A stretch of DNA of 64,000 nucleotides from Pedobacter sp. R20-19 (GTDB lineage Bacteria > Bacteroidota > Bacteroidia > Sphingobacteriales > Sphingobacteriaceae): the NCBI RefSeq assembly GCF_000708265.2, contig NZ_JCKI01000005.1, forward strand, positions 1 to 64,000. The letters run 5' to 3'. The position numbers and the translations under genes were made by a program. Below are positions 12,021-63,875 of this stretch, piece after piece. Under the pieces are notes generated by a model, which saw only the letters and a program-made list of their open reading frames with translations, did not search any database and was not told the origin of the DNA. The first letter of the stretch is position 1; every line of letters begins with the position of its first letter.

Positions 12021-12119
12021 AAAGGCGCAAAGTTTCTCTTAAGCTAAAAAATAGCAATCCCACCAATGCCCTTAAATTCCTTATGTGGTAAAAAATAACA
12101 CCAGATTGTTGTAACTAAA
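12021..12119. repeat. Imperfect ~100-bp tandem repeat, copy 2
   Basis: Begins AAAGGCGCAAAGTTT and contains AATGCCCTTAAATTCCTTAT, then GGTAAAAAATAA, ending GTAACTAAA, matching copy 1 along its length. Its right end touches the last codons of the minus-strand lldD-like gene. Confidence 0.6.
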
Positions 12120-13284
12120 CCTCCAATAACCTATCCGGAAATTGCGAAATCTCCTCAATGGTTAATTGTTGCATAATCTGGTATAAATGCGTTTTAAACA
12201 TGTTGATGGTATGTTCGCCGCCTTCATCACCTAATGCACCAACACCATACATAAAAGGTCGTCCCATAAAGTTAAACTCAGATCCAACCGCATGCGCCCT
12301 CGCCAAGTCAACACCAGAGCGAATACCACCATCCATCATAATCTTTAACTTTGATTTATACAAGGGATTGCCTGCCAATTTAATGAGTGAATTGATTGAT
12401 GATTCACCCGCATCAATTTGTCTTCCTCCATGGTTGGAAACAATCACACCATCTGCACCAATCTGAATAGCAGCCTGCATATCTTCATCGGTCGTAATCC
12501 CTTTCAATACCAATGGACCTTTCCATAAATCACGTATAGCCGCAACTTTTTCAATGTCAACTTTTCCCGTAAATGTTCGGTTCATAAACTGGCCCAATTG
12601 CGACATATCCAATCCCTTTTCCATGTAAGGCTTCAATGTAGCGAAGGAAGGAATGCCATGTTGAAGCGTCTTGATCCCCCATAGTGGACGAGCAAATGCT
12701 TGCAATATATTATTAATTGACATTTTTGGAGGGATGGACAAGCCACTTTTAATTTCCTTATACCTTAAACCAAATGCAGGAACATCGACTAAAACCACCA
12801 AAACCGGGCATTCTACTGATTGAAGTCGTTTTAAAATATCATCTCTTAAACTATTTTCAGTTGGATGATACAATTGAAACCAAGCTTTGCCTTCAGATAC
12901 CTCAGCAATGCGTTCGATACTGCTGGTAGATACTGTACTTAAGGTATAAGGTATATCATGTTTGGCTGCAGCTTTTGCCAAAATTTCTGGTGCATTAGGC
13001 CACATTAAGCCCTGTAAACCTATTGGTGATATTCCAAATGGCGCACTGTAACGCCGGCCAAATAATTCTACCGACATATCGATCTCTCCACCAACCCTTA
13101 AATAATTAGGTTTAAGGTAAATATTATCGAAGTCACTTTCGTTTCGTGCTAAATTAAGTCCCTCATTACAACCACCCTCCAGGTAGTCAAAAGCAAATTT
13201 AGGAACCCTTGTTTTTGCCTTTTTTCTCAGGTCGGCTACAGAAGGATATTGAGAATGATATGGGAATGTAATTTTTTTACTCAT
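12115..13284 (-). CDS. lldD: FMN-dependent alpha-hydroxy-acid dehydrogenase, probably L-lactate dehydrogenase
   Basis: 389 residues, the usual length. Family landmarks: FAFDYLEGG near the N-terminus, FGISPIGLQGLMWP, the FMN/substrate stretch WFQLYHPTE, LVLKGITTDEDM with the flavin-binding Lys, the catalytic VSNHGGRQID (His acts as base), and the phosphate-binding DGGIRSGVDLARA and GRPFMYG. L-lactate is the best-known substrate of this group; glycolate or mandelate are alternatives. The neighbouring operon is predicted to release L-lactate from deoxysugars, which this enzyme could oxidise to pyruvate. It is separated from that operon by 233 bases, so it probably has its own promoter. Confidence 0.85.
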   Translation of the reverse strand: MSKKITFPYHSQYPSVADLRKKAKTRVPKFAFDYLEGGCNEGLNLARNESDFDNIYLKPNYLRVGGEIDMSVELFGRRYSAPFGISPIGLQGLMWPNAPEILAKAAAKHDIPYTLSTVSTSSIERIAEVSEGKAWFQLYHPTENSLRDDILKRLQSVECPVLVVLVDVPAFGLRYKEIKSGLSIPPKMSINNILQAFARPLWGIKTLQHGIPSFATLKPYMEKGLDMSQLGQFMNRTFTGKVDIEKVAAIRDLWKGPLVLKGITTDEDMQAAIQIGADGVIVSNHGGRQIDAGESSINSLIKLAGNPLYKSKLKIMMDGGIRSGVDLARAHAVGSEFNFMGRPFMYGVGALGDEGGEHTINMFKTHLYQIMQQLTIEEISQFPDRLLEV

Positions 13285-13517
13285 TTTTAATTTAGTGTAT
13301 TGGTCAGATGCCTGTTTTTAAAACCGAAAACTAATATTTTATATTATATTTTCCATCCTGCTCTATCTGTTATTCTATGATTTAACATTTATTTGAGCCG
13401 ATGTTAATTTATCCAATTGGTGTAATGAGTTTAGATGATGTTTACATAAGTCATTCATAGAAAACACACTAAATATTATCACAAATGACGGGCAATCGAA
13501 AATATATTTTGCATTGA

Positions 13518-14339
13518 TTAGAGCTTGTAAAAAGCTTTTGCGTTATCTCCAAAAATTAATTTCCTTTCATTTTCACTGAACCTCATCGTATATTTTTGAA
13601 CTAAATTAAACCAATCCTGATACGGGCGACTCACCAAAACCACGGGCCAGTCGCTGCCAAACATCACCCGCTCCACGCCAAAATTTTCAAATACTGCGTC
13701 GAAACAGTTGAAAAGTTCTTTTTCCTTCCAGTTTTTCCAATCTGCTTCTGTTAATAAACCTGATACTTTACATGATACATTTGAATTTTCAGCCAGTGTT
13801 TTAATGTCTTCACGCCAGGTCTTTAAATCCTGACTTTTGACATCAGGTTTACCACAATGATCAAGTACAAATGGCTGATCAGGAATTTGATCAACCATTT
13901 TTATGATGCTTTTCAGCTGGTTATGATAACACAACAAATCGTATGTGTAACTATTTTTTTTCAGTTGTTTAATCCCATTGATGAAAGCAGGATCGAGCAT
14001 AAATTCTGCTGTTTCCGCCTGAAGAACATGCCGCCAGCCCTTAATTTTTTTAAAGTTTTTATAATATTCGAGTCGGTTATCTAAATCCGGATTTTTAAGA
14101 TCTATCCATCCTACAATACCTTTGATGAGGTCATGCTGATCAGCCAGATTTAGTAGGAATTCATTTTCATGTTCCGATTGATTGGCCTGAACGGCAATGC
14201 AACCAGAGATTTTTAGATCATTTAAAGTACGGATCAGATTTTTAGGTGTAAAATCATTTTGAATGACGGCCATATCTGCTGTTATCCACTCATCTCTAAC
14301 CGGATCAAAATTCCAAAAATGAACATGGGTATCAATCAT
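13518..14339 (-). CDS. Amidohydrolase-family sugar lactonase (L-fucono-/L-rhamnono-lactonase)
   Basis: 273 residues, TIM-barrel amidohydrolase-2 fold: IDTHVHFWNF at the N-terminus (metal or catalytic HxH), the FVLDHCGKP strand, and MFGSDWPVV with the conserved Asp near the C-terminus. Such lactonases open the lactone made by oxidation of L-fucose or L-rhamnose. The next genes upstream are a 6-deoxyhexose mutarotase, an FAH hydrolase and an SDR, which places this enzyme at step two of a non-phosphorylated pathway. The gap to the mutarotase is only 10 bases. L-fuconolactone is my first guess; rhamnonolactone is equally allowed by sequence. Confidence 0.8.
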   Translation of the reverse strand: MIDTHVHFWNFDPVRDEWITADMAVIQNDFTPKNLIRTLNDLKISGCIAVQANQSEHENEFLLNLADQHDLIKGIVGWIDLKNPDLDNRLEYYKNFKKIKGWRHVLQAETAEFMLDPAFINGIKQLKKNSYTYDLLCYHNQLKSIIKMVDQIPDQPFVLDHCGKPDVKSQDLKTWREDIKTLAENSNVSCKVSGLLTEADWKNWKEKELFNCFDAVFENFGVERVMFGSDWPVVLVSRPYQDWFNLVQKYTMRFSENERKLIFGDNAKAFYKL

Positions 14340-14349
14340 AATCCTCTAT

Positions 14350-14679
14350 TTACAATTTAAAAATCTGATCCATTAAAATCCATTTTTCACCAGGTTTAGC
14401 CTGTGGCAAGGCTTGCTGATAATTCCACATTAAGGTTTCCCATTCCTGTACTTTAGGGTCTGCTAAGTCTGATTGATTCTTTTTGTCAAAAGAAAAACTT
14501 TCATCGACCTCCATAATCATAAACAGTCGATTGCCGAGCAGATAGATCTCAAGGTCATCCACACCAGCATGGCGAATGCTATCCTTAATTTCTGGCCATA
14601 CAGCAAGATGATACTGCTTATATTCGTTAATCAGCTTTTCATCATTTATTAAATCGAGTGTTAAACAGTATCTTTTCAT
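14350..14679 (-). CDS. L-rhamnose/L-fucose mutarotase (RhaM family)
   Basis: 109 residues, typical for RhaM (about 104). It has a small ferredoxin-like fold: MKRYCLTLDLINDEKLINEY, then YHLAVWPEI carrying the catalytic His and the family Trp-Pro-Glu, LFMIMEVDE, and a C-terminus with VQEWETLMWNYQQ and PGEKWILMDQIF. It equilibrates anomers of 6-deoxyhexoses before dehydrogenation. It lies 7 bases from the FAH gene in the deoxysugar operon. A relative of this domain is fused to the beta-helix enzyme at 58222-60732. Confidence 0.85.
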   Translation of the reverse strand: MKRYCLTLDLINDEKLINEYKQYHLAVWPEIKDSIRHAGVDDLEIYLLGNRLFMIMEVDESFSFDKKNQSDLADPKVQEWETLMWNYQQALPQAKPGEKWILMDQIFKL

Positions 14680-14686
14680 CTTATTG

Positions 14687-15535
14687 TTAGCTATAAGCTT
14701 TAACTTCTTGTTTACTGGTGCCTAAGCCATCAATTCCCAGTTCTACAACATCACCAGGCTTTAAATACCAGGGCTCTGGCTTTTGTCCCAATCCAACACC
14801 CGCAGGCGTACCTGTTGAGATTACATCTCCAGGTAGGAGTGTCATAAATTGACTGATGTAGGAAACCATAAAAGGAACATTAAATATAAAGTTAGATGTA
14901 TTGCCATCCTGCAATGTTTTTCCATTTACGGTTAACCATAAGCGAAGTTGGTGCACATCTTCAATTTCATCTGGCGTAGCAATGAAGGGTCCTATTGGTG
15001 CAAAGGTATCACAGCTTTTTCCCTTTACCCATTGTCCGTTACGCTCAATTTGAAATTCACGTTCACTGTAATCATTATGCAATGCATAACCCGCTACGTG
15101 GTTTAAGGCATCCTCTTCCGAAACATAACTGGCTTTTTTGCCAATAACGATCGCCAATTCAACCTCCCAATCTGTTTTCTTACTATTTTTAGGGATGATC
15201 AGGTCATCATTAGGACCAACCATTGCCGAAGTAGCTTTAAAAAATAAAATTGGTTCTGCAGGGATGGGCGCATTGGTTTCTGCAGCGTGATCTCTATAAT
15301 TTAAACCCACGCAAACTATTTTAGACGGGCGGGCCAATGCTGGTCCAAGGCGTACACCTTTATCTATTTCAGTTAAGCTTGCTGTTTTAAGATCTTGCTT
15401 TAATTTTTCGAGGCCATTGCCGCCAAAGAACGCTTCATTGTAATCCTGTACCAAACCAGAAACATCATAGTATTTGTCATCTATAATAACTCCGGGTTTT
15501 TCTGCGCCTGCAGCTCCAAAACGTATTAATTTCAT
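14687..15535 (-). CDS. FAH-family 2,4-diketo-3-deoxy-L-fuconate/rhamnonate hydrolase
   Basis: 282 residues. Typical FAH-fold core: KIVCVGLNYRDHAAE, FFKATSAMVGPND, TDWEVELAIVIGKKA (metal-binding Glu residues), GYALHNDYSEREFQ, GKSCDTFAPIGPFI, and STGTPAGVGLGQKP. Members beside an SDR and a 6-deoxyhexose mutarotase cleave 2,4-diketo-3-deoxy-L-fuconate or -rhamnonate to pyruvate and L-lactate, as established for the diketo-hydrolase pathways. Cytoplasmic, no signal peptide. General acylpyruvase activity is the alternative. Confidence 0.8.
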   Translation of the reverse strand: MKLIRFGAAGAEKPGVIIDDKYYDVSGLVQDYNEAFFGGNGLEKLKQDLKTASLTEIDKGVRLGPALARPSKIVCVGLNYRDHAAETNAPIPAEPILFFKATSAMVGPNDDLIIPKNSKKTDWEVELAIVIGKKASYVSEEDALNHVAGYALHNDYSEREFQIERNGQWVKGKSCDTFAPIGPFIATPDEIEDVHQLRLWLTVNGKTLQDGNTSNFIFNVPFMVSYISQFMTLLPGDVISTGTPAGVGLGQKPEPWYLKPGDVVELGIDGLGTSKQEVKAYS

Positions 15536-15642
15536 GTTGTTTTATTTAGTATTAAATGTCAAATAAAAGATGTAGATTATTAATTATCAAAAACTTTTCG
15601 CATTCCGCATTCCTCATTCCGCTTTAGGCTTTTCGCTTCCGC

Positions 15643-16407
15643 CTAATTATTCAAAGTAGTAAAACCGCCATCAATAGGGTAGTCACAGCCCGTAATAAAC
15701 GAAGCTTCATCGCTACATAAATAAAGCGCAAGGGCACCAACTTCTTCCGGTTTGGCCATTCTGCCAATGGGTTGTGTTTTTGATAATTTCTCAAACATCT
15801 CCTCAATGCGATCCGGATAGTTATTTTTTAGAAATCCATCCACAAATGGCGTATGTACACGGGCAGGCGAAATGGAATTGCACCTGATGTTTTCATCAAT
15901 ATAATCTTTTGCTACACTCATTGTCATGGCTTTTACAGCGCCTTTTGCCGTGCTATAAGCAAAACGATCAGGCAAACCCACTAAAGAAGCAATAGAGGCC
16001 ATATTGATAATGACCCCGCCACCAGCAGCACGCAACTGAGGAATTGCCGCATACAAACAATTGTAAACACCCTTCACATTTACCCGCATTACCCGGTCAA
16101 AATCAGATTCTTCTGTGGTATCTGCCTTACCAATATGTGCAATACCTGCATTGTTTACCAGAATATTGATCTTTCCGATCTGATCGAAAATATTTTGAAC
16201 ATTTTGATGATCAGCCACATCACAGGCATAACTGAAAGCTTTACCGCCCTGGTTGCTGATTTCTGCCAATGTAGCTTCCGCTTGCTCGGTGCCCAGCTCT
16301 AAAATATGAACCTCAGCACCTTGTTTGGCTAAAATAGTAGCAATGGCTTTTCCAATGCCACTTCCACCACCTGTAACTACAGCTTTTTTATTCGTTAATG
16401 AAAACAT
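15643..16407 (-). CDS. SDR dehydrogenase of the deoxysugar pathway
   Basis: 254 residues, classical short-chain dehydrogenase: TGGGSGIGKAIA (NAD-binding), LVNNAGIAHIG, catalytic Ser in NMASIASL, YSTAK (Tyr and Lys), and a C-terminal CSDEASFITGCDYPIDGGFT. First gene of the minus-strand operon. In this pathway an SDR acts either on the sugar at C1 or on 2-keto-3-deoxy-fuconate/rhamnonate at C4. The direct link with the FAH hydrolase favours the C4 step, but sequence alone does not decide. Confidence 0.8.
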   Translation of the reverse strand: MFSLTNKKAVVTGGGSGIGKAIATILAKQGAEVHILELGTEQAEATLAEISNQGGKAFSYACDVADHQNVQNIFDQIGKINILVNNAGIAHIGKADTTEESDFDRVMRVNVKGVYNCLYAAIPQLRAAGGGVIINMASIASLVGLPDRFAYSTAKGAVKAMTMSVAKDYIDENIRCNSISPARVHTPFVDGFLKNNYPDRIEEMFEKLSKTQPIGRMAKPEEVGALALYLCSDEASFITGCDYPIDGGFTTLNN

Positions 16408-16772
16408 CTTTATTGTTTATATAAAAATTGATAATCGAAATATATGGATTAAAATTAATTGTACGGTTAATATTAAGTTCAATTTCAATAAGATTAAGGG
16501 TATTTGAATACTCCATTTATTTATGATTGATTAGAATAGGAATACAAATAAAATAAATAATGTTGATTAAATAATTTATCAGCAGATCTAAATTTCTTTA
16601 AAAGTTTTTACCATGCCTATAAGGTGGATAAAGGCCTTTTACCTTGCGGAAATTTTACATAACGAAAAGGTTATAATACTTATATTTGAATAATATTTTT
16701 ATATTTAAATAATATTTAACCAAATATCTATTAAATTTCTATAGCAAGGAGATTTAATACAGCTTCCATAAA
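16408..16772. promoter_or_regulatory. Divergent control region between deoxysugar operon and PUL
   Basis: 365 AT-rich bases without a gene. At 16670-16705 a stretch (GTTATAATACTTATATTTGA followed by ATAAT and T-rich DNA) resembles, with several mismatches, the shared element upstream of susC (30255) and the lyase gene (35972). It would lie about 70-100 bases before the first PUL gene. A TAnnTTT-like -7 (TATATTTAA) follows. The similarity is suggestive only. Confidence 0.4.
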
Positions 16773-19505
16773 ATGAGAAAATTCCTATTCCCGTTTTTTT
16801 GTATACTATATTTTTTGATCAATGCTGCCAATTCGGTTTATGCTCAAAAAAAACAGTCTATTATTATTATTTCCTCTGATTACGCCAGGATCAGGTTTGG
16901 AGCCGAACGACTTTCTTCTGCCTTAAAAAATGTGGGTTATCAGGTCAGTCTGGTCAATCAAAAAAAGTTCGCAGCTGTTAAAGATGCCATTGTGATCGGA
17001 CTTGGAAATGATCAGGTTTTTTCAAAGTTACCGCTATCCTTCAAAAACAAAGCAATTAATGCTGGTAAAGAAGGTTTTTCAATTGCTTATGGTGAAGATA
17101 ATGTTTTATACATTTTAGGCGCCGATGCATCAGGTGCTTTATATGGTTGCCTCGAACTCGCAGATCAAATCAAATCAAAGCATAAAATCCCAGCACAAAT
17201 AATGATCGCCGATCAGCCAGAAATGGTGTTGCGCGGCACTTGTATTGGCTTACAGAAACCTGATTACTTGCCCGGGCATGATGTTTATGAGTATCCATAC
17301 ACACCAGAAACTTTCTCATGGCTATATGATAAAGCCCTATGGATTAAATACCTGGATATGATGGTCGATAATCGTTACAATTCCCTTTATTTATGGAATG
17401 GTCATCCTTTTTCATCTTTGATCCGGTTAAAAGATTATCCTTATGCTGTGGAAGTGGATGAGGCAACGTTGAAAAAAAATGAGGAGATCTTTCAATTCTT
17501 AACACATGAAGCGGATAAACGTGGAATCTGGGTAATTCAGATGTTCTACAACATTATTATCCCCAAGCCCTTTGCAGATCAGCATGGCTTAAAAACCCAA
17601 GACCGCAACCGCCCAATTGTGCCGTTGATTGCTGATTATACCCGTAAATCTATCGCAGCATTTGTGGCCAAATATCCGAATGTGGGTTTAATGGTGGCAT
17701 TGGGTGAGGCCATGGAAGGCGTTGGTCAGGATGATATCGATTGGTTTACCAAAACAATTATTCCCGGCGTGAAAGATGGTTTAAAAAGTGCAGGAATTAA
17801 AGCTGAACCACCCATCGTTTTGCGTGCCCATGATACCGATGCACCGGCTGTAATGAAAGCAGCTTTGCCATTTTACAAAAATCTCTATACCGAAAATAAA
17901 TTTAATGGTGAGGCTTTAACCACATACGAACCCCGTGGCGCCTGGGCCGAGTTGAACAGGAAGCTAGCTGATATTGGAACGGTAAATATTTCTAACGTAC
18001 ATATTTTAGCCAACCTGGAGCCTTTCCGGTATGGGTCGGCAGATTTTATTCAAAAATCGGTTCAGGCCATGAATAAAATCTATCATGCCAAAGGCTTGCA
18101 TTTGTATCCTCAACACAGTTATTGGGATTGGCCTTATGCGGCAGATAAAGTAAAGGGTAGGATCTTGGAGGTAGATCGTGATTGGATCTGGTATAAAGAA
18201 TGGGGGCGATACGCCTGGAAATCAGAAAGAAACCGTATCCAGGAAATTAACTATTGGGCTGAGCAACTGGCTAATCGATATGGTACTAATTTAGCGGGAG
18301 GGAAATCAATCTTAAATGCATATGAAGCATCGGGAGAAATTTCGCCAAAACTGTTGCGCAGGTATGGCATTACCGATGGGAACAGGCAGACGCTTACATT
18401 AGGTATGTTAATGACACAGCTTATCAATCCTTTTCGCTACGGTTTGTTTACTTTAATGTATGAGTCTGAAGCGCCTGAAGGCGAGATGATTATCGAGTAC
18501 GCTGAAAAAGAATGGAAGAGACAAGGGCATATTGGCGAAACGCCCGTTCAGGTTGCTAAAGAAGTAGTTCAACATGGGGAAACAGCCGTAGCATCAATCA
18601 ATGAAGTAAAGGCAACTAAAGATATAGCAGAATTCAATCGCCTTAAAAATGATATGTACTGTTATGATGAAATGGCAAATTTTTATGCAGAAAAGGTAAA
18701 GTCTGCCCTTTGGGTTTTAAGGTATAAATATTCTAACGATGTTACTGATTTGGAAAAGGCACTTCCGCTTTTGCAAAAAAGTGTAGAGCACTATGCTAAG
18801 CTGGTTAAGTTAACTGAAAGAAGCTATTTATATGCCAACAGCATGCAAACAAAGCAGCGTAAAATCCCGATGCGTGGCGTTGACAAGACTTTTATCCACT
18901 GGAAGGAAATGTTGCCGGTTTTTACAAAAGAACTCCATCACTTCAAAAAAAGTATCGATTCTTTAAAATCCTTAAATGGAGCAGTTATCGCTAAAATTAT
19001 CCCTTACCAATCAGCCGATGTTAACGTTTTAAATGAATCTGCAACTTATAGCATCAACCAGAATGTGGAAGTATTTGCGGATACAAGCGTTCGGATCAAA
19101 GAAGTTGCTGAGCAGTTAATCGGATTGAAGGGAATTAAATTAGCTAAAGAAAAACAAATTAAAGTGGGTACTGAAATTAAATTTACCACCAAAGTGCCTG
19201 TAAAACTATTAATTGGGTTTTTCAATCAGAAAAACCCTAAATACCTGGCTCCGCCACAATTGGAAACTGATGCCAGTGCAAATAACTACGGCCAATCGGA
19301 AATTAAAATTTCCAATGCTTTGGTACTGGATGGCTTTCCACCGGCCAATGTTCATGCTTATGCCTTTCCTGCTGGCTCACATACTTTAAATTTGGGAAAA
19401 GGAGAATGCCTGGTACTAGGTTTCATTGATGATCGACAGGAATTAAGAATATTTAACGCTGGTTTGGATGGTAAAGGAAAAGATATAGATTGGTTATTTG
19501 AATGA
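16773..19505 (+). CDS. Secreted TIM-barrel glycoside hydrolase, GH138-like (alpha-galacturonidase candidate)
   Basis: 910 residues with a Sec signal ending SVYAQ. Residues ~25-150 form a small alpha/beta domain of the type that precedes the barrel in GH20/GH67/GH115 enzymes (ILGADASGALYGCLELADQI). A barrel follows, starting LRGTCIGLQKP and WIKYLDMMVDNRYNSLYLWNG, with LIADYTRKSIAAFVAKYP, MVALGEAMEGVG (acidic) and EPPIVLRAHDTDAP. The tail is beta-rich. I cannot assign the CAZy family with certainty. Size, architecture and the RG-II-like context make GH138 (alpha-galacturonidase of RG-II chain A) the best candidate, with GH67/115-type alpha-glucuronidase the alternative. It overlaps the next gene by 4 bases. 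Confidence 0.6.
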   Translation: MRKFLFPFFCILYFLINAANSVYAQKKQSIIIISSDYARIRFGAERLSSALKNVGYQVSLVNQKKFAAVKDAIVIGLGNDQVFSKLPLSFKNKAINAGKEGFSIAYGEDNVLYILGADASGALYGCLELADQIKSKHKIPAQIMIADQPEMVLRGTCIGLQKPDYLPGHDVYEYPYTPETFSWLYDKALWIKYLDMMVDNRYNSLYLWNGHPFSSLIRLKDYPYAVEVDEATLKKNEEIFQFLTHEADKRGIWVIQMFYNIIIPKPFADQHGLKTQDRNRPIVPLIADYTRKSIAAFVAKYPNVGLMVALGEAMEGVGQDDIDWFTKTIIPGVKDGLKSAGIKAEPPIVLRAHDTDAPAVMKAALPFYKNLYTENKFNGEALTTYEPRGAWAELNRKLADIGTVNISNVHILANLEPFRYGSADFIQKSVQAMNKIYHAKGLHLYPQHSYWDWPYAADKVKGRILEVDRDWIWYKEWGRYAWKSERNRIQEINYWAEQLANRYGTNLAGGKSILNAYEASGEISPKLLRRYGITDGNRQTLTLGMLMTQLINPFRYGLFTLMYESEAPEGEMIIEYAEKEWKRQGHIGETPVQVAKEVVQHGETAVASINEVKATKDIAEFNRLKNDMYCYDEMANFYAEKVKSALWVLRYKYSNDVTDLEKALPLLQKSVEHYAKLVKLTERSYLYANSMQTKQRKIPMRGVDKTFIHWKEMLPVFTKELHHFKKSIDSLKSLNGAVIAKIIPYQSADVNVLNESATYSINQNVEVFADTSVRIKEVAEQLIGLKGIKLAKEKQIKVGTEIKFTTKVPVKLLIGFFNQKNPKYLAPPQLETDASANNYGQSEIKISNALVLDGFPPANVHAYAFPAGSHTLNLGKGECLVLGFIDDRQELRIFNAGLDGKGKDIDWLFE

Positions 19506-55229: not shown

Positions 55230-55523
55230 ATGGAAAGAGGTGGATTTGTTTACATCATGACTAATAAAAATCATATGGTTTTATATACAGGTGTTACCTC
55301 TGATTTGAGGAATAGGGTATATGAGCATATAAATAATCAATATCCTAAAAGCTTTACCTCGAAATACAAATGTTATAAATTGGTTTACTACAATTTCTTC
55401 TGGGATATTGAAGAAGCAATTAACGAAGAAAAAAGAATCAAGGGCGGTAACAGACTTGCCAAGCTTAAATTAATAAATGAATTTAATCCGAATTGGAATG
55501 ACTTATTTGAAACATTGGAGTAG
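55230..55523 (+). CDS. Small GIY-YIG endonuclease embedded in repeats
   Basis: 97 residues, one domain: GFVYIMTNKNHMVLYTGVTSDLRNRVYEH has the VYI...YTG version of the GIY-YIG motif and the catalytic Arg, and DIEEAINEEKRIKGG has the Glu and conserved Lys-Gly segment. It belongs to the stand-alone UPF0213/YhbQ-like GIY-YIG group, whose roles are poorly known. It breaks a run of secreted carbohydrate enzymes, has no signal peptide, and is flanked on both sides by family A palindromes (55133-55205 and 55532-55906), so it may be part of how these repeats spread. Confidence 0.85.
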   Translation: MERGGFVYIMTNKNHMVLYTGVTSDLRNRVYEHINNQYPKSFTSKYKCYKLVYYNFFWDIEEAINEEKRIKGGNRLAKLKLINEFNPNWNDLFETLE

Positions 55524-55531
55524 TATGTTTT

Positions 55532-55906
55532 CGTCATTGCGAGGCACGAAGCAATCTCATTCAACAAAGTCGGATTGCTTCAGCTCGCACAGGCCAGGCT
55601 TCGCAATGACGACAACTTGTTTGGATTTATCAATGCACTCTCTCAGCTTATCTTCATTGCGAGGAGGCACAACAGCTTGCCCCGACTTTTCAGGGAAGCA
55701 ATCTAATCTTTCGAGGGAGATTGCTTCGGTTGATGAAAAATCAAGCCTCGCGATGACGACAACTTGTTTGGGGTTATCGAGGCAATCTATCACCTCATCG
55801 TCATTGCGAGAAGGCACAACAGCCTGCCCCGAGATATCGGGAAAGCAATCTCATTCAGTGCAGTCAGATTTCTTCTTCCCGCTTACACCAAACTTTGCAA
55901 TAATGA
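55532..55906. repeat. Tandem array of three family A palindromic repeats
   Basis: Units at 55532-55613, 55652-55760 and 55798-55906, each CGTCATTGCGAG(G) ... GAAGCAATCT / AGATTGCTTC ... GCAATGA. Units 1 and 2 are followed by the same linker CGACAACTTGTTTGG; units 2 and 3 carry the CACAACAGCNTGCCCCGA insertion. The array stays open in one frame across about 140 codons that join the next gene, which I consider untranslated. Confidence 0.8.
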
Positions 55907-57321: not shown

Positions 57322-58218
57322 ATGGAGAATCAAAATAGAAGAGCTTTTATCGGTAGTATTTCTTTGCTTACCGGATCTTTAATGATTTCAAATCAATGGC
57401 TTATGGCTAATGAAAAGAAATTAAGATATAAAGTTGCTGTAATCGATTTGATGATTTTAAAACGCCAGAAATTGAGCGCATTACCACTAACTAAAGAGAT
57501 TGGTGCTGATGGTTTAGAGATTGATATGGGTGGTTTGGGCAACAGAGAAACTTTTGATAATAAATTGGCCGACCCTAAAGTAAGGCAAGAATATTTGGAT
57601 AAAGCCAAAGATTTGAATTTGGAGATTTGTTCTTTGGCAATGACGGGTTTTTATGCACAGTCTTTTGCTACACGTCCAACTTATCAAAAGATGATTCAAG
57701 ATTGCCTGGACACCGCAAAATCCATGGGGATTAAAGTGGTGTTTTTGCCTCTAGGCGTACAAAGTGATCTGGTTAAAAATCCTGAATTGCGTCAACCCAT
57801 CATCGATAGATTAAAAGTTGCCGGGAAAATGGCTTCAAAAGCAGGCATTGTTATCGGAATAGAATCGGCCCTGGATGCAACTGGTGAATTGAAATTGCTG
57901 AAAGAGGTTGGTTCCATAAATGTAAAAAGCTATTTCAATTTTTCTAATGCGATCAAAAATGGCAGAAACTTGCATGATGAGCTAAGAATTTTGGGCAGAA
58001 AAAATATCATTCAAATTCATGCAACCAATGAAGATGGTGTTTGGTTGCAAAATGATCCTAAAATAAACCTTTATAAAGTGAAAGAAACGCTCGATGACTT
58101 GGGCTGGAGCGGTTGGTTAGTGGTAGAAAGAAGTAGAGATGCTGCGCAACCCACAAACGTGAAATATAATTTTAGTGCCAATACAAGCTATTTAAAGTCT
58201 GTTTTTCAAGCTGAATAA
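57322..58218 (+). CDS. Exported sugar-phosphate-isomerase/epimerase-like TIM-barrel protein
   Basis: 298 residues, N-terminus NRRAFIGSISLLTGSLMISN (twin-Arg-like signal). The rest is a xylose-isomerase-like TIM barrel: VAVIDLMILKRQ, LTKEIGADGLEIDMGGLG, LNLEICSLAMTGFYAQSF, CLDTAKSMGIKVVFLPLG, KAGIVIGIESALDATGE (Glu), IIQIHATNEDGV, and GWSGWLVVERSRD (Glu). These are the metal-binding positions of the fold. Exported members are common in Bacteroidota carbohydrate loci and lack known reactions. The spacing to both neighbours is 3-6 bases, so it is co-translated with the esterase and the GH141-like fusion. Confidence 0.7.
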   Translation: MENQNRRAFIGSISLLTGSLMISNQWLMANEKKLRYKVAVIDLMILKRQKLSALPLTKEIGADGLEIDMGGLGNRETFDNKLADPKVRQEYLDKAKDLNLEICSLAMTGFYAQSFATRPTYQKMIQDCLDTAKSMGIKVVFLPLGVQSDLVKNPELRQPIIDRLKVAGKMASKAGIVIGIESALDATGELKLLKEVGSINVKSYFNFSNAIKNGRNLHDELRILGRKNIIQIHATNEDGVWLQNDPKINLYKVKETLDDLGWSGWLVVERSRDAAQPTNVKYNFSANTSYLKSVFQAE

Positions 58219-58221
58219 TTT

Positions 58222-60732
58222 ATGAAACAGATTAGTATAACCTTTTTATTGATATTCAGTTTATTGCACTTCAACGCAGCAGCTGTAGATATTTATGTTT
58301 CCATAAATGGCTTCGATACTAACTTGGGTACCAAAGAAAAACCGCTGGCAACACTGCATGCTGCAATTAGAAAAGCAAGAGAATTGCGCCGTTTGAAAGA
58401 TCCATCAATTAAAGATGGAATCAAAATTATCATGGGGAAAGGTATATATCAGTTGGATGAATCCATCGTGCTGCGACCAGAAGATTCAGGTACGCCAGAT
58501 AGTCCTACAGAAATCATCGCTTTGCAAGGAGAAAAAGCCATTTTAAGTGGTGGTGTAAAAATTAATGGATGGAGTAAACTGAATAAAATTGTTCCTGGAT
58601 TACCAAAAGCATCTTTAGGGAAAGTCTGGGTGGCAGATTTGCCTAATTTCGGTGGGCTTGATTTACAATTCAGACAGTTGTGGGTGAATGAACATAAAGC
58701 CATCAGGGCAAAAAACTATAACGGTGAAGAGATGGGCAGGATTTTATCCTGGGATAAAAAGAATCAGACTTGTAAAATTCCCATTTCAAAAAATATTAAT
58801 TTAGAGAATATTAAAGGTATGGAAATGCTGATTCACCAATGGTGGGCAATTGCAAATCTTCGTGTAAAATCGATCAAAGTAGCTGGAGATACTGCAGAAC
58901 TTTCTTTTATGCAGCCTGAAAGCAGAATTCAGTCAGAACATCCCTGGCCCGCACCATGGATTTCTGAAAAAACCGGAAATTCTGCTTTTTACCTTTCAAA
59001 CGCCATTCAGTTTTTAGATGAGCCTGGCGAATGGTTTGAAGATCTTCAACATCACAAGCTTTATTACTGGCCGCGTGCATCAGAAAATATGCTTAAAGCA
59101 GATGTAGTGGCACCAATGCTTGAAAATCTGGTTAAAATTGAGGGAACAATTGATCACCCGATTTCCTATGTGAGCTTCAAAAATATCTCTTTCGAACATT
59201 CAACCTGGTTAAGACCATCACAACAAGGCCACGTGCCGCACCAGGCAGGGATGTACATGCTCGATGCTTATAAACTAAAAATTCCAGGAACGCCAGATAA
59301 AGCTGCTTTGGAAAATCAAGCCTGGGTTGGCCGGCCAGCAGCAGCGGTTAAAGTGAATTACGTGAACAATACTTCGTTTGAGTCATGTCGGTTTGAACAT
59401 CTTGCATCTACAGGCTTAGACTTCAAAAACGGGACATCAGATAATAAAATAGCAGGTAATTTATTTAAAGATATTGGTGGCGCTGCCATTTTAATCGGAA
59501 CCTTTTCTGATGAGGCAACTGAGGTGCATTTGCCATATAATCCTTTCGACAAAAGAGAAATTTCTATGGATGACAGAATAGAAAATAACCTGATTATCGA
59601 TGTAACCAATGAAGATTGGGGAGCGGTTGGAATTGGTGCGGGTTACGTTCGTGGAATCAAAATTATTCATAATGAAATCTGTGATGTTTCCTACTCTGGC
59701 GTTAGTATGGGTTGGGGATGGACGAAGTCGCAAAATGCGATGAAGAACAACATCATCAGCGCAAACAGCATCCATCATTATGGCAAACATCTATATGATG
59801 TTGCAGGAATATATACTTTATCTGCACAGCCAGAGTCTGTTATTAATGAGAATGTTATAGATAGCATTTATAAGGCGCCTTATGCCCATCTTCCTGACCA
59901 TTGGTTTTACTTATATACTGATGAGGGTTCATCACACTTTACCATAAAAGACAATTGGACACCAACTGAAAAGTATTTGCAAAATGCCAACGGACCAGAT
60001 AATCTTTGGGAAAACAACGGACCTAAAGTTGCAGATCACATCAAGCAAAATGCTGGATTAGAGGAACCGTTTCAATATTTATTAAAAGAAAAATCTGTCT
60101 ATTCAAATAGGGGAATCAACACCGCAGAAGATAAATCTGTCGTGTTTGAGTTAATATTTAAACTAAATGACTTACCAGGAAATAATACTCTAAATGAATT
60201 TGCTAAAGAAAACAACCTTTTGCCTTCATCATTTTACAAGTGGAATAATCGCCTGGTGATTTATACTTCAAGCCTAAAAGTGGAAAGTTTACAGCAGACT
60301 TTAAAGCGCCTAAACGCATCTGAAATTAAACTTTATGATAATCTTTTTTATGATTTCAACAGAGAAAAGAACTGTGGTGATCAACCTGTAAAAGAATGGG
60401 ATCATATTATTTTATCGGCCAATTTGGTAAAGGATGAAAAAATGCAAAAAGAATACCTGGCCTATCATCAAACACAGTTTGAAAAATGGCCGGAGATTTC
60501 AAAAGGATTCTGTAATGCTGAATTTCAGCGGTTAGCGATTTTTAAAAATGAAAGACAACTCATGCTTATCATCAGTATTCCGAAAGGAAAAAAATTGGAT
60601 GATTTAAATCCTAAAACCACGGAAAACAATCCAAGAGTAGAAGAATGGAATGCAATAATGAAAAAATACCAGGAAGGAATTGAGGGTGCAAAACCTGGTG
60701 AGGTTTGGGTTTTCTTTAAACCAATAGATTAA
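58222..60732 (+). CDS. Beta-helix glycosidase (GH141-like) fused to a RhaM-like mutarotase
   Basis: 836 residues, signal peptide ending FNAAA. Residues ~22-630 are a right-handed beta-helix enzyme: IYVSINGFDTNLGTKEKPLATLHAAIRKAREL, ITPTEII-type (SPTEIIALQGEKAILSGGVKI), FRQLWVNEHKAIRAKNYNG, MLIHQWWAIANLRV, and ASTGLDFKNGTSDNKIAGN. Layout and context fit GH141 (alpha-L-fucosidase of RG-II). Residues ~723-836 match the mutarotase at 14350: ILSANLVKDEKMQKEYLAYH with KWPEI against the same in RhaM, and NPRVEEWNAIMKKYQEG with PGEVWVFFKPI. Residues ~638-715 look like a decayed first copy, so the pair could mimic the RhaM dimer within one chain. Confidence 0.75.
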   Translation: MKQISITFLLIFSLLHFNAAAVDIYVSINGFDTNLGTKEKPLATLHAAIRKARELRRLKDPSIKDGIKIIMGKGIYQLDESIVLRPEDSGTPDSPTEIIALQGEKAILSGGVKINGWSKLNKIVPGLPKASLGKVWVADLPNFGGLDLQFRQLWVNEHKAIRAKNYNGEEMGRILSWDKKNQTCKIPISKNINLENIKGMEMLIHQWWAIANLRVKSIKVAGDTAELSFMQPESRIQSEHPWPAPWISEKTGNSAFYLSNAIQFLDEPGEWFEDLQHHKLYYWPRASENMLKADVVAPMLENLVKIEGTIDHPISYVSFKNISFEHSTWLRPSQQGHVPHQAGMYMLDAYKLKIPGTPDKAALENQAWVGRPAAAVKVNYVNNTSFESCRFEHLASTGLDFKNGTSDNKIAGNLFKDIGGAAILIGTFSDEATEVHLPYNPFDKREISMDDRIENNLIIDVTNEDWGAVGIGAGYVRGIKIIHNEICDVSYSGVSMGWGWTKSQNAMKNNIISANSIHHYGKHLYDVAGIYTLSAQPESVINENVIDSIYKAPYAHLPDHWFYLYTDEGSSHFTIKDNWTPTEKYLQNANGPDNLWENNGPKVADHIKQNAGLEEPFQYLLKEKSVYSNRGINTAEDKSVVFELIFKLNDLPGNNTLNEFAKENNLLPSSFYKWNNRLVIYTSSLKVESLQQTLKRLNASEIKLYDNLFYDFNREKNCGDQPVKEWDHIILSANLVKDEKMQKEYLAYHQTQFEKWPEISKGFCNAEFQRLAIFKNERQLMLIISIPKGKKLDDLNPKTTENNPRVEEWNAIMKKYQEGIEGAKPGEVWVFFKPID

Positions 60733-60743
60733 ATTAAAATACT

Positions 60744-60812
60744 CGTCATTGCGAGACACGAAGCAATCTTATTAGGAGAAGATTGCCACGTCGTTCCTCC
60801 TCGCAATGACGA
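60744..60812. repeat. Palindromic repeat, family A, complete
   Basis: CGTCATTGCGAGACACGAAG ... CAATCTT pairs with AAGATTGCC ... CTCCTCGCAATGACG. Both arms are well kept. It fills the gap before the oxidoreductase gene. Confidence 0.8.
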
Positions 60813-60838
60813 CTTATGAATAAACAAAAAATAAGATC

Positions 60839-61924
60839 ATGTTAAGATTAGGGATTTTAGGATTAGGAGAGGGCAGAAGTACCATTTCTGCTTCATTGGC
60901 GAGCAAGAAATTTAAGCTCATTCAAATATGCGATGTCAACAGGAAACTTTGCGAAGAACGTGCTTTAGAATTCGATTTCCACAACTGGACAACCAGTTAC
61001 GAAGATATGTTAACCAGTGATAAAATTGATATGATTGCGATTTACACGCCAGACCACTTGCATGTTGAACATATTAAACTGGCGCTGCAGCATGGTAAGC
61101 ATGTGGTTTGTACCAAGCCTTTTATTGATGATTTATCGCAGGCTAATGAACTTTTAGAATTGAGTAAAAAATCACGGAAGAAGATTTTTGTAGGTCAGAG
61201 TTCACGCTTTTTTGAGCCTGCTATGCGCCAGAAAAAAGATTTCGATAAAGGTTTAATCGGCGAATTAATTACAATAGAAAGTTATTATCATGCAGATCAC
61301 CGCTGGTTTTTAGAGAAAGGCTGGTCACTCAAACAATCATTTAAATGGTTGTACGGCGGTTTAAGTCATCCGGTTGATTTTATCCGTTGGTATATGCCAG
61401 ACATTGAAGAGGTAATGGGCTACGGCATGTTGAGTAGCAATGGATTAAAAGCCGGATTGAAAAATCAGGATACGATGCACTTCATTTTTAAGGCAAAAGA
61501 TGGCAGGATTGCACGAGTGAGTGGTGCTTATACCGGGCCAACCCAGCCAGCAAGTCGTGATAGTGGAATGAGTTGCATTTTACGTGGCACGGAAGGTGCT
61601 AGTCAGGCCGATTATCATGAACTACGTTATTCAGTAACCACAAAAACTGGCGAAGAAAAGATTATTACCTGGGGCGACTCTACCTTAAAACACTATTTCC
61701 GCTTCGAAGGGCAAAGTCACCATGCAGGTGAATACCAAAACTACCTGGATTACTTTGCAGATAGCATCAACAATAAATTTACTGCCTATCCTGATTTGAA
61801 AGAGGGAATCGGAACGGTGGCACTTTTACAAGCGATGGATCAATCAATTGAAACGGGTTTGCCAGTAAAAATTGATGAGATCTTGAAAGCAAATCATATT
61901 ACAAGGGAATCGATAGGCTTGTAA
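60839..61924 (+). CDS. Gfo/Idh/MocA-family sugar oxidoreductase
   Basis: 361 residues, no signal peptide, hence cytoplasmic. Rossmann start LRLGILGLGEGRS, IQICDVNRKLCEERA, MIAIYTPDHLHVEHIKLALQHGKHVVCTKPF (the family CxKP, here TKPF, Lys catalytic), and ESYYHADHRWFLEKGW with LYGGLSHPVDFIRWY (His). The C-terminal domain is an alpha/beta substrate module. It could oxidise a monosaccharide from the locus; the missing sugar 1-dehydrogenase of the deoxysugar pathway is one possibility, but the family is too broad to say. It is flanked by repeats and precedes the transporter. Confidence 0.8.
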   Translation: MLRLGILGLGEGRSTISASLASKKFKLIQICDVNRKLCEERALEFDFHNWTTSYEDMLTSDKIDMIAIYTPDHLHVEHIKLALQHGKHVVCTKPFIDDLSQANELLELSKKSRKKIFVGQSSRFFEPAMRQKKDFDKGLIGELITIESYYHADHRWFLEKGWSLKQSFKWLYGGLSHPVDFIRWYMPDIEEVMGYGMLSSNGLKAGLKNQDTMHFIFKAKDGRIARVSGAYTGPTQPASRDSGMSCILRGTEGASQADYHELRYSVTTKTGEEKIITWGDSTLKHYFRFEGQSHHAGEYQNYLDYFADSINNKFTAYPDLKEGIGTVALLQAMDQSIETGLPVKIDEILKANHITRESIGL

Positions 61925-62285: not shown

Positions 62286-63875
62286 ATGGGAAACATTGTA
62301 GAACGTTTAACCAGCTTAGATTACCTCATCGTCATCGCCTACCTTATTATTTTGGTCATCATCGGGTACCGGGCAAGCTTTTCAAAAGATAAGAACAAAG
62401 ATGAAACGCTATTCCTGGCCAATAAATCTTTAGGCTGGGCAAGTATTGGCTTTAATATGTGGGGCACAAATGTCGGTCCATCAATGTTGCTGGCCTTTGC
62501 CAGTATAGGTTACACCACAGGCATCGTTGCGGTAAACTTCGATTGGTATGCCTTTATCTTTTTGTTTTTACTGGCCATTGTTTTCGCTCCGAAATACCTG
62601 TCAGCAAAAGTAAGCACCATGCCAGAATTTATGGGGAACCGTTATGGCGATTCTACCCAAAATATATTGGCCTGGTATGCCTTAGTAAAGATTTTAATCT
62701 CCTGGTTATCATTAGGCTTATTTGCCGGAGGATTTTTAGTCCGACAAATTCTGGGCATCCCCATGTGGCAATCGGTTACGGTTTTAGTGGCTTTTGCAGG
62801 ATTATTTACCTTTTTCGGGGGATTAAAAGCCATTGCAAAAGTGAATGTTTTTCAAATGATTTTATTGATTGCCGTGTCATTATCTCTTACGCTTTTAGGC
62901 TTGCATAAAGTGGGTGGAATTTCTGCTTTGTATGCTAAAACCCCTGGTCATTTCTGGAACCTCATTCAACCTGCCAGCGACCCAAAATACCCATGGTATG
63001 CCATTCTGTTGGGTTATCCGGTAGCAGCTATTGCCTTCTTTTGTACCGACCAGTCGATGGTGCAATCCGTTTTAGGCGCAAAGAATTTGAAGCAAGGGCA
63101 ATTGGGCGTGAGCTTTATTGGATGGTTAAAATTGCTGTCTTTACCACTGTTTATTATCACAGGAATTTTGTGCTATGTTTTATTTCCAAATCTTAAAGAT
63201 CCTAATGAAGCTTACATGACGATGGTGACCAACCTTTTTCCTGCAGGGATGAATGGTTTGGTAATTGTGGTTTTAATTGCAGTTTTAGTGGGGACGATTG
63301 GTTCTTCCTTAAACTCTTTGAGTACCGTTTTTACAATGGATGTGTATGTCAAGAAAATTAATCCGCAGGCTACTAATAAGCAAATCATAAACATCGGTCG
63401 CTTAACAGTAGTTGCAGGCTGTATTTTTGCGGTAATTGTGGTTCTGGCCATTGACAATATTAAAGGCTTAAATCTGTTTGATGTTTTCCAATCAGTTTTA
63501 GGCTTCATCGCGCCGCCGCTTTCAGTGGTGTTCCTGTTAACGGTGTTCTGGAAAAAAACCACAAGAAAAGCGGTGAATTTTACTCTATCCATGGGCTCTG
63601 TTTTGAGTTTGGGTACAGGAATTACATACCTCTGGATTTTACCACCCGATAAATACACTTTTTGGCCACACTATCTGATGCTCTCGTTCTATATTTTCGC
63701 AGGGTTACTTATTATAGCTATCCTTATTTCACTTTTAGACCGAAGCCCGAGTATTTACAAAATTAATGATGAACATCAGGCGAACATCGAAAAGCCTAGT
63801 CAGATAGTCTGGATTTCGTGGACAGCACTTGCGGTAGTGATGGTTGTACTTTATATCTTCTTTAATGGACATTAA
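62286..63875 (+). CDS. Sodium/solute symporter (SSS/SLC5 family)
   Basis: 529 residues with about 13-14 hydrophobic segments. Family marks: LIVIAYLIILVIIGYRAS, FLANKSLGWASIGFNMWGTNVGPSMLLAFASIG (TM1 unwound sodium site region), YLSAKVSTMPEFMGNRYG, and VVLIAVLVGTIGSSLNSLSTVFTMDVY (TM8, sodium-site Ser/Thr). Inner-membrane uptake of a monosaccharide liberated by the periplasmic enzymes is likely; L-rhamnose, L-fucose or uronate fit the locus. The closest named group (SGLT-like sugar versus others) cannot be settled by eye. Confidence 0.88.
   Translation: MGNIVERLTSLDYLIVIAYLIILVIIGYRASFSKDKNKDETLFLANKSLGWASIGFNMWGTNVGPSMLLAFASIGYTTGIVAVNFDWYAFIFLFLLAIVFAPKYLSAKVSTMPEFMGNRYGDSTQNILAWYALVKILISWLSLGLFAGGFLVRQILGIPMWQSVTVLVAFAGLFTFFGGLKAIAKVNVFQMILLIAVSLSLTLLGLHKVGGISALYAKTPGHFWNLIQPASDPKYPWYAILLGYPVAAIAFFCTDQSMVQSVLGAKNLKQGQLGVSFIGWLKLLSLPLFIITGILCYVLFPNLKDPNEAYMTMVTNLFPAGMNGLVIVVLIAVLVGTIGSSLNSLSTVFTMDVYVKKINPQATNKQIINIGRLTVVAGCIFAVIVVLAIDNIKGLNLFDVFQSVLGFIAPPLSVVFLLTVFWKKTTRKAVNFTLSMGSVLSLGTGITYLWILPPDKYTFWPHYLMLSFYIFAGLLIIAILISLLDRSPSIYKINDEHQANIEKPSQIVWISWTALAVVMVVLYIFFNGH

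Follow-up and report, generated by a model that had tools for sequence, protein, structure and literature searches.

A secreted GH141 glycosidase fused to a two-domain RhaM-type tail in a rhamnogalacturonan-II locus of Pedobacter sp. R20-19, and the association of the tail with an SGLT-type symporter

A GH141 glycosidase and a RhaM-type domain share one exported chain

The stretch of DNA analysed here, hereafter the window, comprises 64,000 nt from the soil bacterium Pedobacter sp. R20-19. An open reading frame (ORF) at 58222-60732 on the plus strand, with an ATG start and a single uninterrupted frame, encodes an 836 amino acid protein in which a glycosidase domain of family GH141 is followed by a tail containing a RhaM-type mutarotase domain. 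Upstream of this fusion lie genes for GH28, GH95, two GH2 enzymes, an apiosidase-like protein and a GH78-type rhamnosidase, together with two DUF3826 proteins and one BNR_2 protein. This gene set, the orthology to BT_1002 described below and, in part, the known rhamnogalacturonan-II (RG-II) loci of B. thetaiotaomicron assign the window to the pectin loci of RG-II type. The features of the fusion are as follows.

58222..58284, +: signal peptide (residues 1 to ~21), Sec type without lipobox, recognised by eye; helix at residues 2-15 in the full-length model
58276..60081, +: GH141 domain (residues 19-620), a parallel beta-helix with the GH141 insertion domain (PF21231, Beta_helix, 5mqp)
59797..59799, +: Asp526, equivalent of BT_1002 D523, invariant in 34/34 rows of alignment A3
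59920..59922, +: Asp567, equivalent of BT_1002 D564, invariant in 34/34 rows of A3
60082..60141, +: fast-evolving linker, with the highest nonsynonymous substitution rate (dN) of four regions in 7/8 comparisons
60142..60378, +: ferredoxin-like domain 1 (residues 641-719), lacking the Tyr/His pair of RhaM, from the model of residues 641-836
60373..60375, +: Cys718, invariant in alignments A1, A2 and A3
60391..60729, +: RhaM-type domain 2 (residues 724-836), PF05336 over cut-off, fold match 7byu
60454..60456, +: Tyr745, aligned with RhaM Tyr18, invariant in A1, A2 and A3 and in 20/20 active-site rows
60466..60468, +: His749, aligned with the catalytic His22 of RhaM, invariant in A1, A2 and A3 and in 20/20 active-site rows
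60469..60486, +: loop linking His749 to Trp756, with 3 more residues than in other RhaM-type rows of the alignments
60511..60513, +: Cys764, invariant in A1, A2 and A3
60649..60651, +: Asn810 at the position of RhaM Trp77; Asn in the exported rows compared

Within the fusion, Pfam places GH141_M (PF21231) at residues 133-285 with an E-value of 5.6e-70 (234.6 bits against a cut-off of 27), along with Beta_helix at 1.9e-9, and the solved BT_1002 structure (5mqp) is matched by residues 19-620 at 5.5e-208. Judged by sequence, the GH141 domain is orthologous to BT_1002. The two proteins share the catalytic Asp pair, spaced by 41 residues in each when aligned with 5mqp, and an RG-II type locus. Unlike the fusion, however, the 5mqp chain (624 residues) ends after the beta-helix. 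BT_1002 frees a fucose-ended disaccharide from RG-II chain A, with D523 and D564 both required, according to PMC10154630 and PMC12786026.

The rhaM model (PF05336) scores 5.1e-11 in the fusion, or 43.1 bits against a curated cut-off of 23.4, over residues 737-830, and the tail by itself reaches 47.2 bits. A first-pass annotation, made from the letters alone, had proposed a secreted GH141 enzyme and a RhaM-type mutarotase in one chain, and this holds, with PF21231 and PF05336 both above their cut-offs and a signal peptide visible by eye. When the architecture is searched for across Bacteroidota it recurs in dozens of genomes, which rules out an assembly error.

The tail is predicted to fold as two ferredoxin-like domains

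The window also encodes a stand-alone member of the family, with which the tail can be compared.

14350..14679, -: cytosolic RhaM-type mutarotase (PF05336, 5.6e-31; best solved match the L-fucose mutarotase 7byu/7byw)

In hhalign, 104 columns of the C-terminal part of the fusion align with this protein (33% identity, probability 99.5), bearing out the first-pass reading of the last ~115 residues. A model of the tail (residues 641-836, 52 aligned sequences), with a mean predicted local distance difference test score (pLDDT) of 90 and a predicted template modelling score (pTM) of 0.85, consists of two ferredoxin-like domains, the second of which retains the catalytic His, as had been foreseen; the same elements are present in a full-length model (pLDDT 85, pTM 0.79). 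In the predicted model, domain 2 matches the L-fucose mutarotase 7byu (Z 11.5, root-mean-square deviation 2.7, 102 residues aligned), with E. coli RhaM 1x8d next (Z 9.8) and then 6hhn (Z 9.5); 90-102 residues are aligned across the matches. A Foldseek search with the tail model returned nothing under an E-value of 0.001, the best match being 7byu at 2.1e-3, and 7byu also ranked first for the tail in the VIA second look. A phmmer search of the tail against PDB sequences gave no match at E-values up to 10, and neither the fusion nor the tail matched the L-rhamnose mutarotase equivalog TIGR02625 at E-values up to 1.

Where the first-pass annotation had envisaged packing as in a RhaM dimer, the fold matches of the whole tail are to other two-domain alpha+beta proteins (Z 8 to 10). 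Domain 1 alone resembles ACT-type ferredoxin folds, with Z values of 6-7 that may reflect only a common arrangement. No match was obtained between a profile of domain 1 and domain 2, and hhalign of domain 1 against 20 cytosolic RhaM-type sequences gave a weak alignment of 58 columns (probability 10.7, P 0.0029), a score attained by 1 of 150 column shuffles and by 0 of 43 other window-protein pieces used as controls. The ~80 residues preceding domain 2 had been interpreted as a second, diverged RhaM copy. The predicted ferredoxin-like fold agrees, and by fold domain 1 may be such a copy; the sequence kinship is weak, however, and the Tyr/His pair is missing. A putatively catalytic domain 2 and a non-catalytic domain 1 probably form a pseudo-dimer within one chain, and a disulfide between Cys718 and Cys764 is possible.

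Two other identities for the tail were set aside: an unrelated carbohydrate-binding fold is ruled out by the predicted model and the fold matches, and a NanM-type anomerase, which would carry the beta-propeller fold known as Kelch, is at odds with a tail predicted as two ferredoxin-like domains. Of the two outcomes named at the outset as telling against the fusion, neither was seen, as no carbohydrate-binding fold emerged and the glycosidase and tail are split in some relatives, not in all.

Conserved residues and rates of evolution

Tyr745 and His749 are kept in 52/52 tail rows. The residues concerned in E. coli RhaM are Tyr18, the catalytic His22, and positions 41 and 77, which are substrate contacts. 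Position 77 separates the rows compared: it is Asn in 11/11 exported rows (tails and single-domain forms) and in 0/9 others, being Glu in the 5 rows of the cytosolic 14350 type and Trp in the other 4, which are of classical RhaM type and include 7byu and the second such protein of this genome. Position 41 corresponds to Leu771 in the tail and is also Leu in the cytosolic 14350 mutarotase. Because members of the 14350 type likewise differ from E. coli RhaM at these two positions, the mismatch is no argument against assigning the tail to the RhaM family.

Rates were compared with other Pedobacter as dN instead of as the ratio to the synonymous rate (dS), since in many cases dS had almost saturated or could not be computed. 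Relative to the GH141 part, dN is lower for domain 2 in 8/8 comparisons and higher for domain 1 in 5/8. The pace of domain 1 and of the linker would suit a tail that serves as a stabilising or anchoring appendage and takes no part in sugar chemistry, and since the separate forms of the tail described below are mostly lipoprotein-like, anchoring is possible. That explanation sits poorly with the invariant Tyr/His pair, with a slowly evolving domain 2 and with the joint occurrence of tail and dehydrogenase, and we regard it as highly improbable.

Distribution of the tail and of GH141

Genomes drawn from the bacterial family were scanned for GH141 at E-values up to 1e-120 and for the full tail, with both domains, at E-values up to 2.5e-41. 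Among the 151 family genomes, 39 carry GH141 and 38 carry the full tail; both occur in 38 and the tail alone in none, G055 being the only genome with GH141 and no tail. A scan of 395 genomes drawn from the phylum, which scored at most 8 first-look candidates per genome and could therefore have missed some tails, found GH141 in 18 genomes, and the full tail in 15 of these 18 and in no others; a sixteenth tail match proved to be a single-domain form. Three genomes are common to the two draws.

Gene arrangement was examined in two sets of loci, a named set comprising the best 80 of 346 relatives in genome contigs and a family set of 40. The sets overlap in genomes, and related genomes should not be counted as independent events. 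The fusion is spread widely across Bacteroidota, the holders among the named loci including Pedobacter, Mucilaginibacter, Flavobacterium, Larkinella, Pontibacter, Hymenobacter and Paludibacter. In the named set, 68/80 tails lie in frames that also hold GH141 sequence (3 of them contig-cut and 1 broken) and the other 12 are separate genes, 8 of which have GH141 on the same locus. The family set contains 25 fused tails, 13 separate tail genes and 2 single-domain forms; 9 of these 13 separate genes overlap or abut the GH141 gene, and the other 4 (L043-L046) are ~5 to 8 kb from it. In two Pinibacter loci (L118, L152) and one Paludibacter locus (L124), GH141 is found off the tail locus, elsewhere in the genome, the copy in the genome of L124 carrying one internal stop. 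Alignment A2 was made from 51 of the 80 named loci, and A3 from 33 of the 68 fused ones, with near-copies, the contig-cut L078, L106 and L132, and L147 omitted. The last of these, Niabella defluvii L147:8004-10552, has its GH141 frame in pieces ahead of the tail, through sequencing error or as a pseudogene.

The separate tails carry export signals of their own. For 25 separate tail ORFs on 23 contigs, a script called 12 with a lipobox, 9 hydrophobic without lipobox and 4 with neither (2 of these 4 with a misplaced start); by eye, 18 are lipobox-like and 7 Sec-type. Judging from these N-termini, both the fused and the separate tail are located outside the cytoplasm.

A mutarotase acting on some other RG-II sugar, such as apiose, L-galactose or one that is methylated, might have GH141 as its neighbour by locus history only. 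Such an enzyme would account for the four loci whose tail lacks a nearby GH141 (L118, L124, L131 and L152; three of these genomes have GH141 elsewhere and that of L131 has none) and for the distance of GH141 in L043-L046. It is harder to reconcile with the confinement of the full tail to GH141-bearing genomes in both draws (38/38 and 15/15, 3 shared) and with the fact that all fused rows join GH141, the 5 long RhaM frames in 109 phylum genomes being GH141 frames. We therefore judge this explanation unlikely, although not strikingly so. The same survey dismisses fusion as a general habit of RhaM proteins, because only 5 of the 31 RhaM matches in those 109 genomes lie in frames >250 aa, all of them GH141 frames. 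Other GH141 fusions do occur in f11, a family that we guess to be Bacteroidaceae-like, in which loci L221-L224 have GH141 domains within frames of 1113-1780 aa.

A dehydrogenase and a symporter follow the tail

Two genes lie downstream of the fusion in the window, in the order dehydrogenase and then symporter.

60839..61924, +: Gfo/Idh/MocA dehydrogenase (PF01408/PF02894), without a signal peptide by eye
62286..63875, +: SGLT-type sodium/solute symporter (SSS; PF00474), best solved matches SGLT1, SGLT2 and vSGLT

The closest relatives of the dehydrogenase are DgpA and other Gfo/Idh proteins, from which it is too distant for its substrate to be named. A Gfo/Idh gene lies no more than 400 bp downstream of the tail in 73/80 named and 35/38 family loci, and the symporter is downstream in 74/80 and 35/38, respectively. 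As regards the named loci without this close dehydrogenase, L078, L106 and L120 reach the contig end within 0.7 kb and L153 has the gene 1.7 kb away. The cassette is kept in L118, L131 and L152, whose tails have no nearby GH141. Conversely, by the same script, Gfo/Idh stands beside GH141 in 0/24 tail-less loci (22 genomes) as against 10/10 tail-bearing ones. The symporter was found in 0/4 of the tail-less GH141 loci with long flanks; the remaining 20 (L205-L224) have flanks of 1.5 kb, too short for this comparison. The near-constant tie of the tail to the dehydrogenase and the SGLT-type symporter points to a role for the tail. The first-pass annotation had overlooked this tie, as well as the RG-II setting of BT_1002 type and the tails encoded as separate lipoproteins.

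The same tie could be accommodated by a RhaM-fold tail that acts as a non-catalytic module for binding or handing off sugar, holding it near the symporter or clearing product from the GH141 site. The dehydrogenase and transporter are the steadiest partners of the tail, RhaM positions 41 and 77 are replaced, and domain 1 is without the catalytic pair, all of which such a module would explain. It would not explain why Tyr745 and His749 are invariant in 52/52 rows, nor why domain 2 is slower than the glycosidase in every comparison, as expected of an enzyme site, and on balance we hold it to be distinctly unlikely.

Directly upstream of the fusion (57322-58218) is an AP_endonuc_2 (sugar isomerase-like) gene with an N-terminal signal by eye, relatives of which are upstream of the tail in 62/80 named loci. 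In the case of L124, from Paludibacter sp. UBA6032, a cytosolic-looking RhaM (16637-17035) lies ~6 kb from the separate exported tail, and a symporter 3.5 kb downstream of that tail, with no Gfo/Idh match.

Single-domain exported RhaM lipoproteins

A further type of exported RhaM protein consists of one domain.

L052:7879-8322, L053:7626-8057, L181:4525-4965 and L193:2431-2844: single-domain exported RhaM lipoproteins

All four adjoin an SSS symporter (4/4 loci), accompanied by an aldo/keto reductase and an enolase-type gene, which are named by Pfam in L181 and recognised by N-terminal likeness in the others. Like the tail, these proteins are exported beside the symporter and have Asn at RhaM position 77. 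Unlike the tail, they are without domain 1, have Lys/Arg at the position of Cys764 and possess no loop insert; no GH141 was found on these loci. An exported RhaM beside an SSS importer is thus observed in two gene settings.

Other features of the window

The neighbours of the cytosolic mutarotase at 14350 resemble L-fucono-1,5-lactonase and 2,4-didehydro-3-deoxy-L-rhamnonate hydrolase, both below their NCBIfam cut-offs. The lactonase-like, mutarotase, hydrolase-like and short-chain dehydrogenase/reductase genes of 12115-16407 form a cytosolic route of L-fucose or L-rhamnose oxidation. The intergenic stretch after the fusion (60733-60838) has a short inverted-looking segment (CGTCATTGCGAG...CTCGCAATGACG), and the overlong start of the ORF at 55477 (55477-55900) reads like a translated repeat of the same kind.

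A possible route from glycosidase to importer

We favour, as the fairly probable explanation, an exported GH141 and RhaM chain in an RG-II locus that couples sugar release, anomer exchange, symporter import and processing by the dehydrogenase. Acting at the cell surface or in the periplasm as an alpha-L-fucosidase of BT_1002 type, the GH141 domain would release one anomer of either L-fucose or the 2-O-methyl-xylosyl-fucose disaccharide. Outside the inner membrane, the RhaM domain would then speed the exchange of this product to the other anomer, the SGLT-type symporter would import the anomer it prefers, and the Gfo/Idh dehydrogenase would process the imported sugar in the cytoplasm. The analysis shows which domains and export signals the chain carries, which of its residues are conserved, how the tail is predicted to fold, and how the genes co-occur and are arranged; that the tail is catalytic, which sugar is handled, which anomer the importer prefers and in what sequence the steps run are inferred.

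Several observations weigh against this route. In contrast to the Tyr and Trp of E. coli RhaM, positions 41 and 77 are Leu771 and Asn810, which makes L-rhamnose handling as in E. coli unlikely and catalysis uncertain. Free L-fucose mutarotates spontaneously, so any gain must be in rate. In f11, where all candidates were scored, GH141 occurs in 22/151 genomes and the tail in 0/151, which implies that the tail is unnecessary for GH141 action. Fusion itself is not essential either, because the fused or separate label switches at least 4 times on the best tree, or 2 times if only well-supported branches are counted (81 rows, with L154-L169, L193, L147 and L132 left out and near-copies thinned). 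No Gfo/Idh follows the tail in L121, L124 and L137 of the named set or in L067, L069 and L070 of the family set. Finally, the tail of Chitinophagaceae bacterium 26-R-25 (L131) is accompanied by Gfo/Idh and the symporter, and a genome-wide search at E-values up to 1e-60 found no GH141, so the cassette of dehydrogenase, symporter and tail can exist without GH141. This last case and the Asn mark of the exported forms roughly offset each other, leaving our estimate for the route as a whole unchanged.

Relation to known mutarotases and significance

The solved proteins nearest to the tail, L-fucose mutarotase 7byu/7byw and RhaM 1x8d, which are stand-alone cytoplasmic proteins, share with it the ferredoxin-like fold, the Tyr/His pair and a WP motif. 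The tail differs from them in being exported, in its second ferredoxin-like domain, in the longer loop after the His and in the residues at positions 41 (Leu) and 77 (Asn). A functional parallel would be NanM, a periplasmic N-acetylneuraminate mutarotase proposed, in PMC8141875, to turn the anomer produced by sialidase into the one carried by NanT. NanM, as there described, would resemble the tail in altering a glycosidase-released anomer outside the inner membrane for an importer; it differs in its Kelch-type fold, in its sugar and in not being fused to a glycosidase (PMC8141875).

The component families are known, and an exported mutarotase has a precedent in NanM. The literature searched, with subscription journals mostly outside it, contains neither a glycosidase-mutarotase fusion, nor the two-domain form, nor the tie to an SGLT-type importer. 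Of the new arrangement that the first-pass annotation had suggested, the fusion is therefore new within that literature, although mutarotation outside the cytoplasm was already known from NanM (PMC8141875).

More broadly, and only tentatively, a secreted glycosidase may carry a mutarotase for its own product, possibly a disaccharide, that feeds an SGLT-type importer, and a branch of exported RhaM proteins marked by Asn at position 77 may supply SSS importers in Bacteroidota. The anomeric outcome of GH141 (PMC10154630) would be worth measuring in this setting. If the route is correct, a glycosidase would export its own product-converting enzyme, tied to one importer, and the RhaM family would acquire an exported role. 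It would also predict bacterial importers of SGLT type that are selective for one anomer, with the supply of that anomer limiting the uptake of RG-II sugars.

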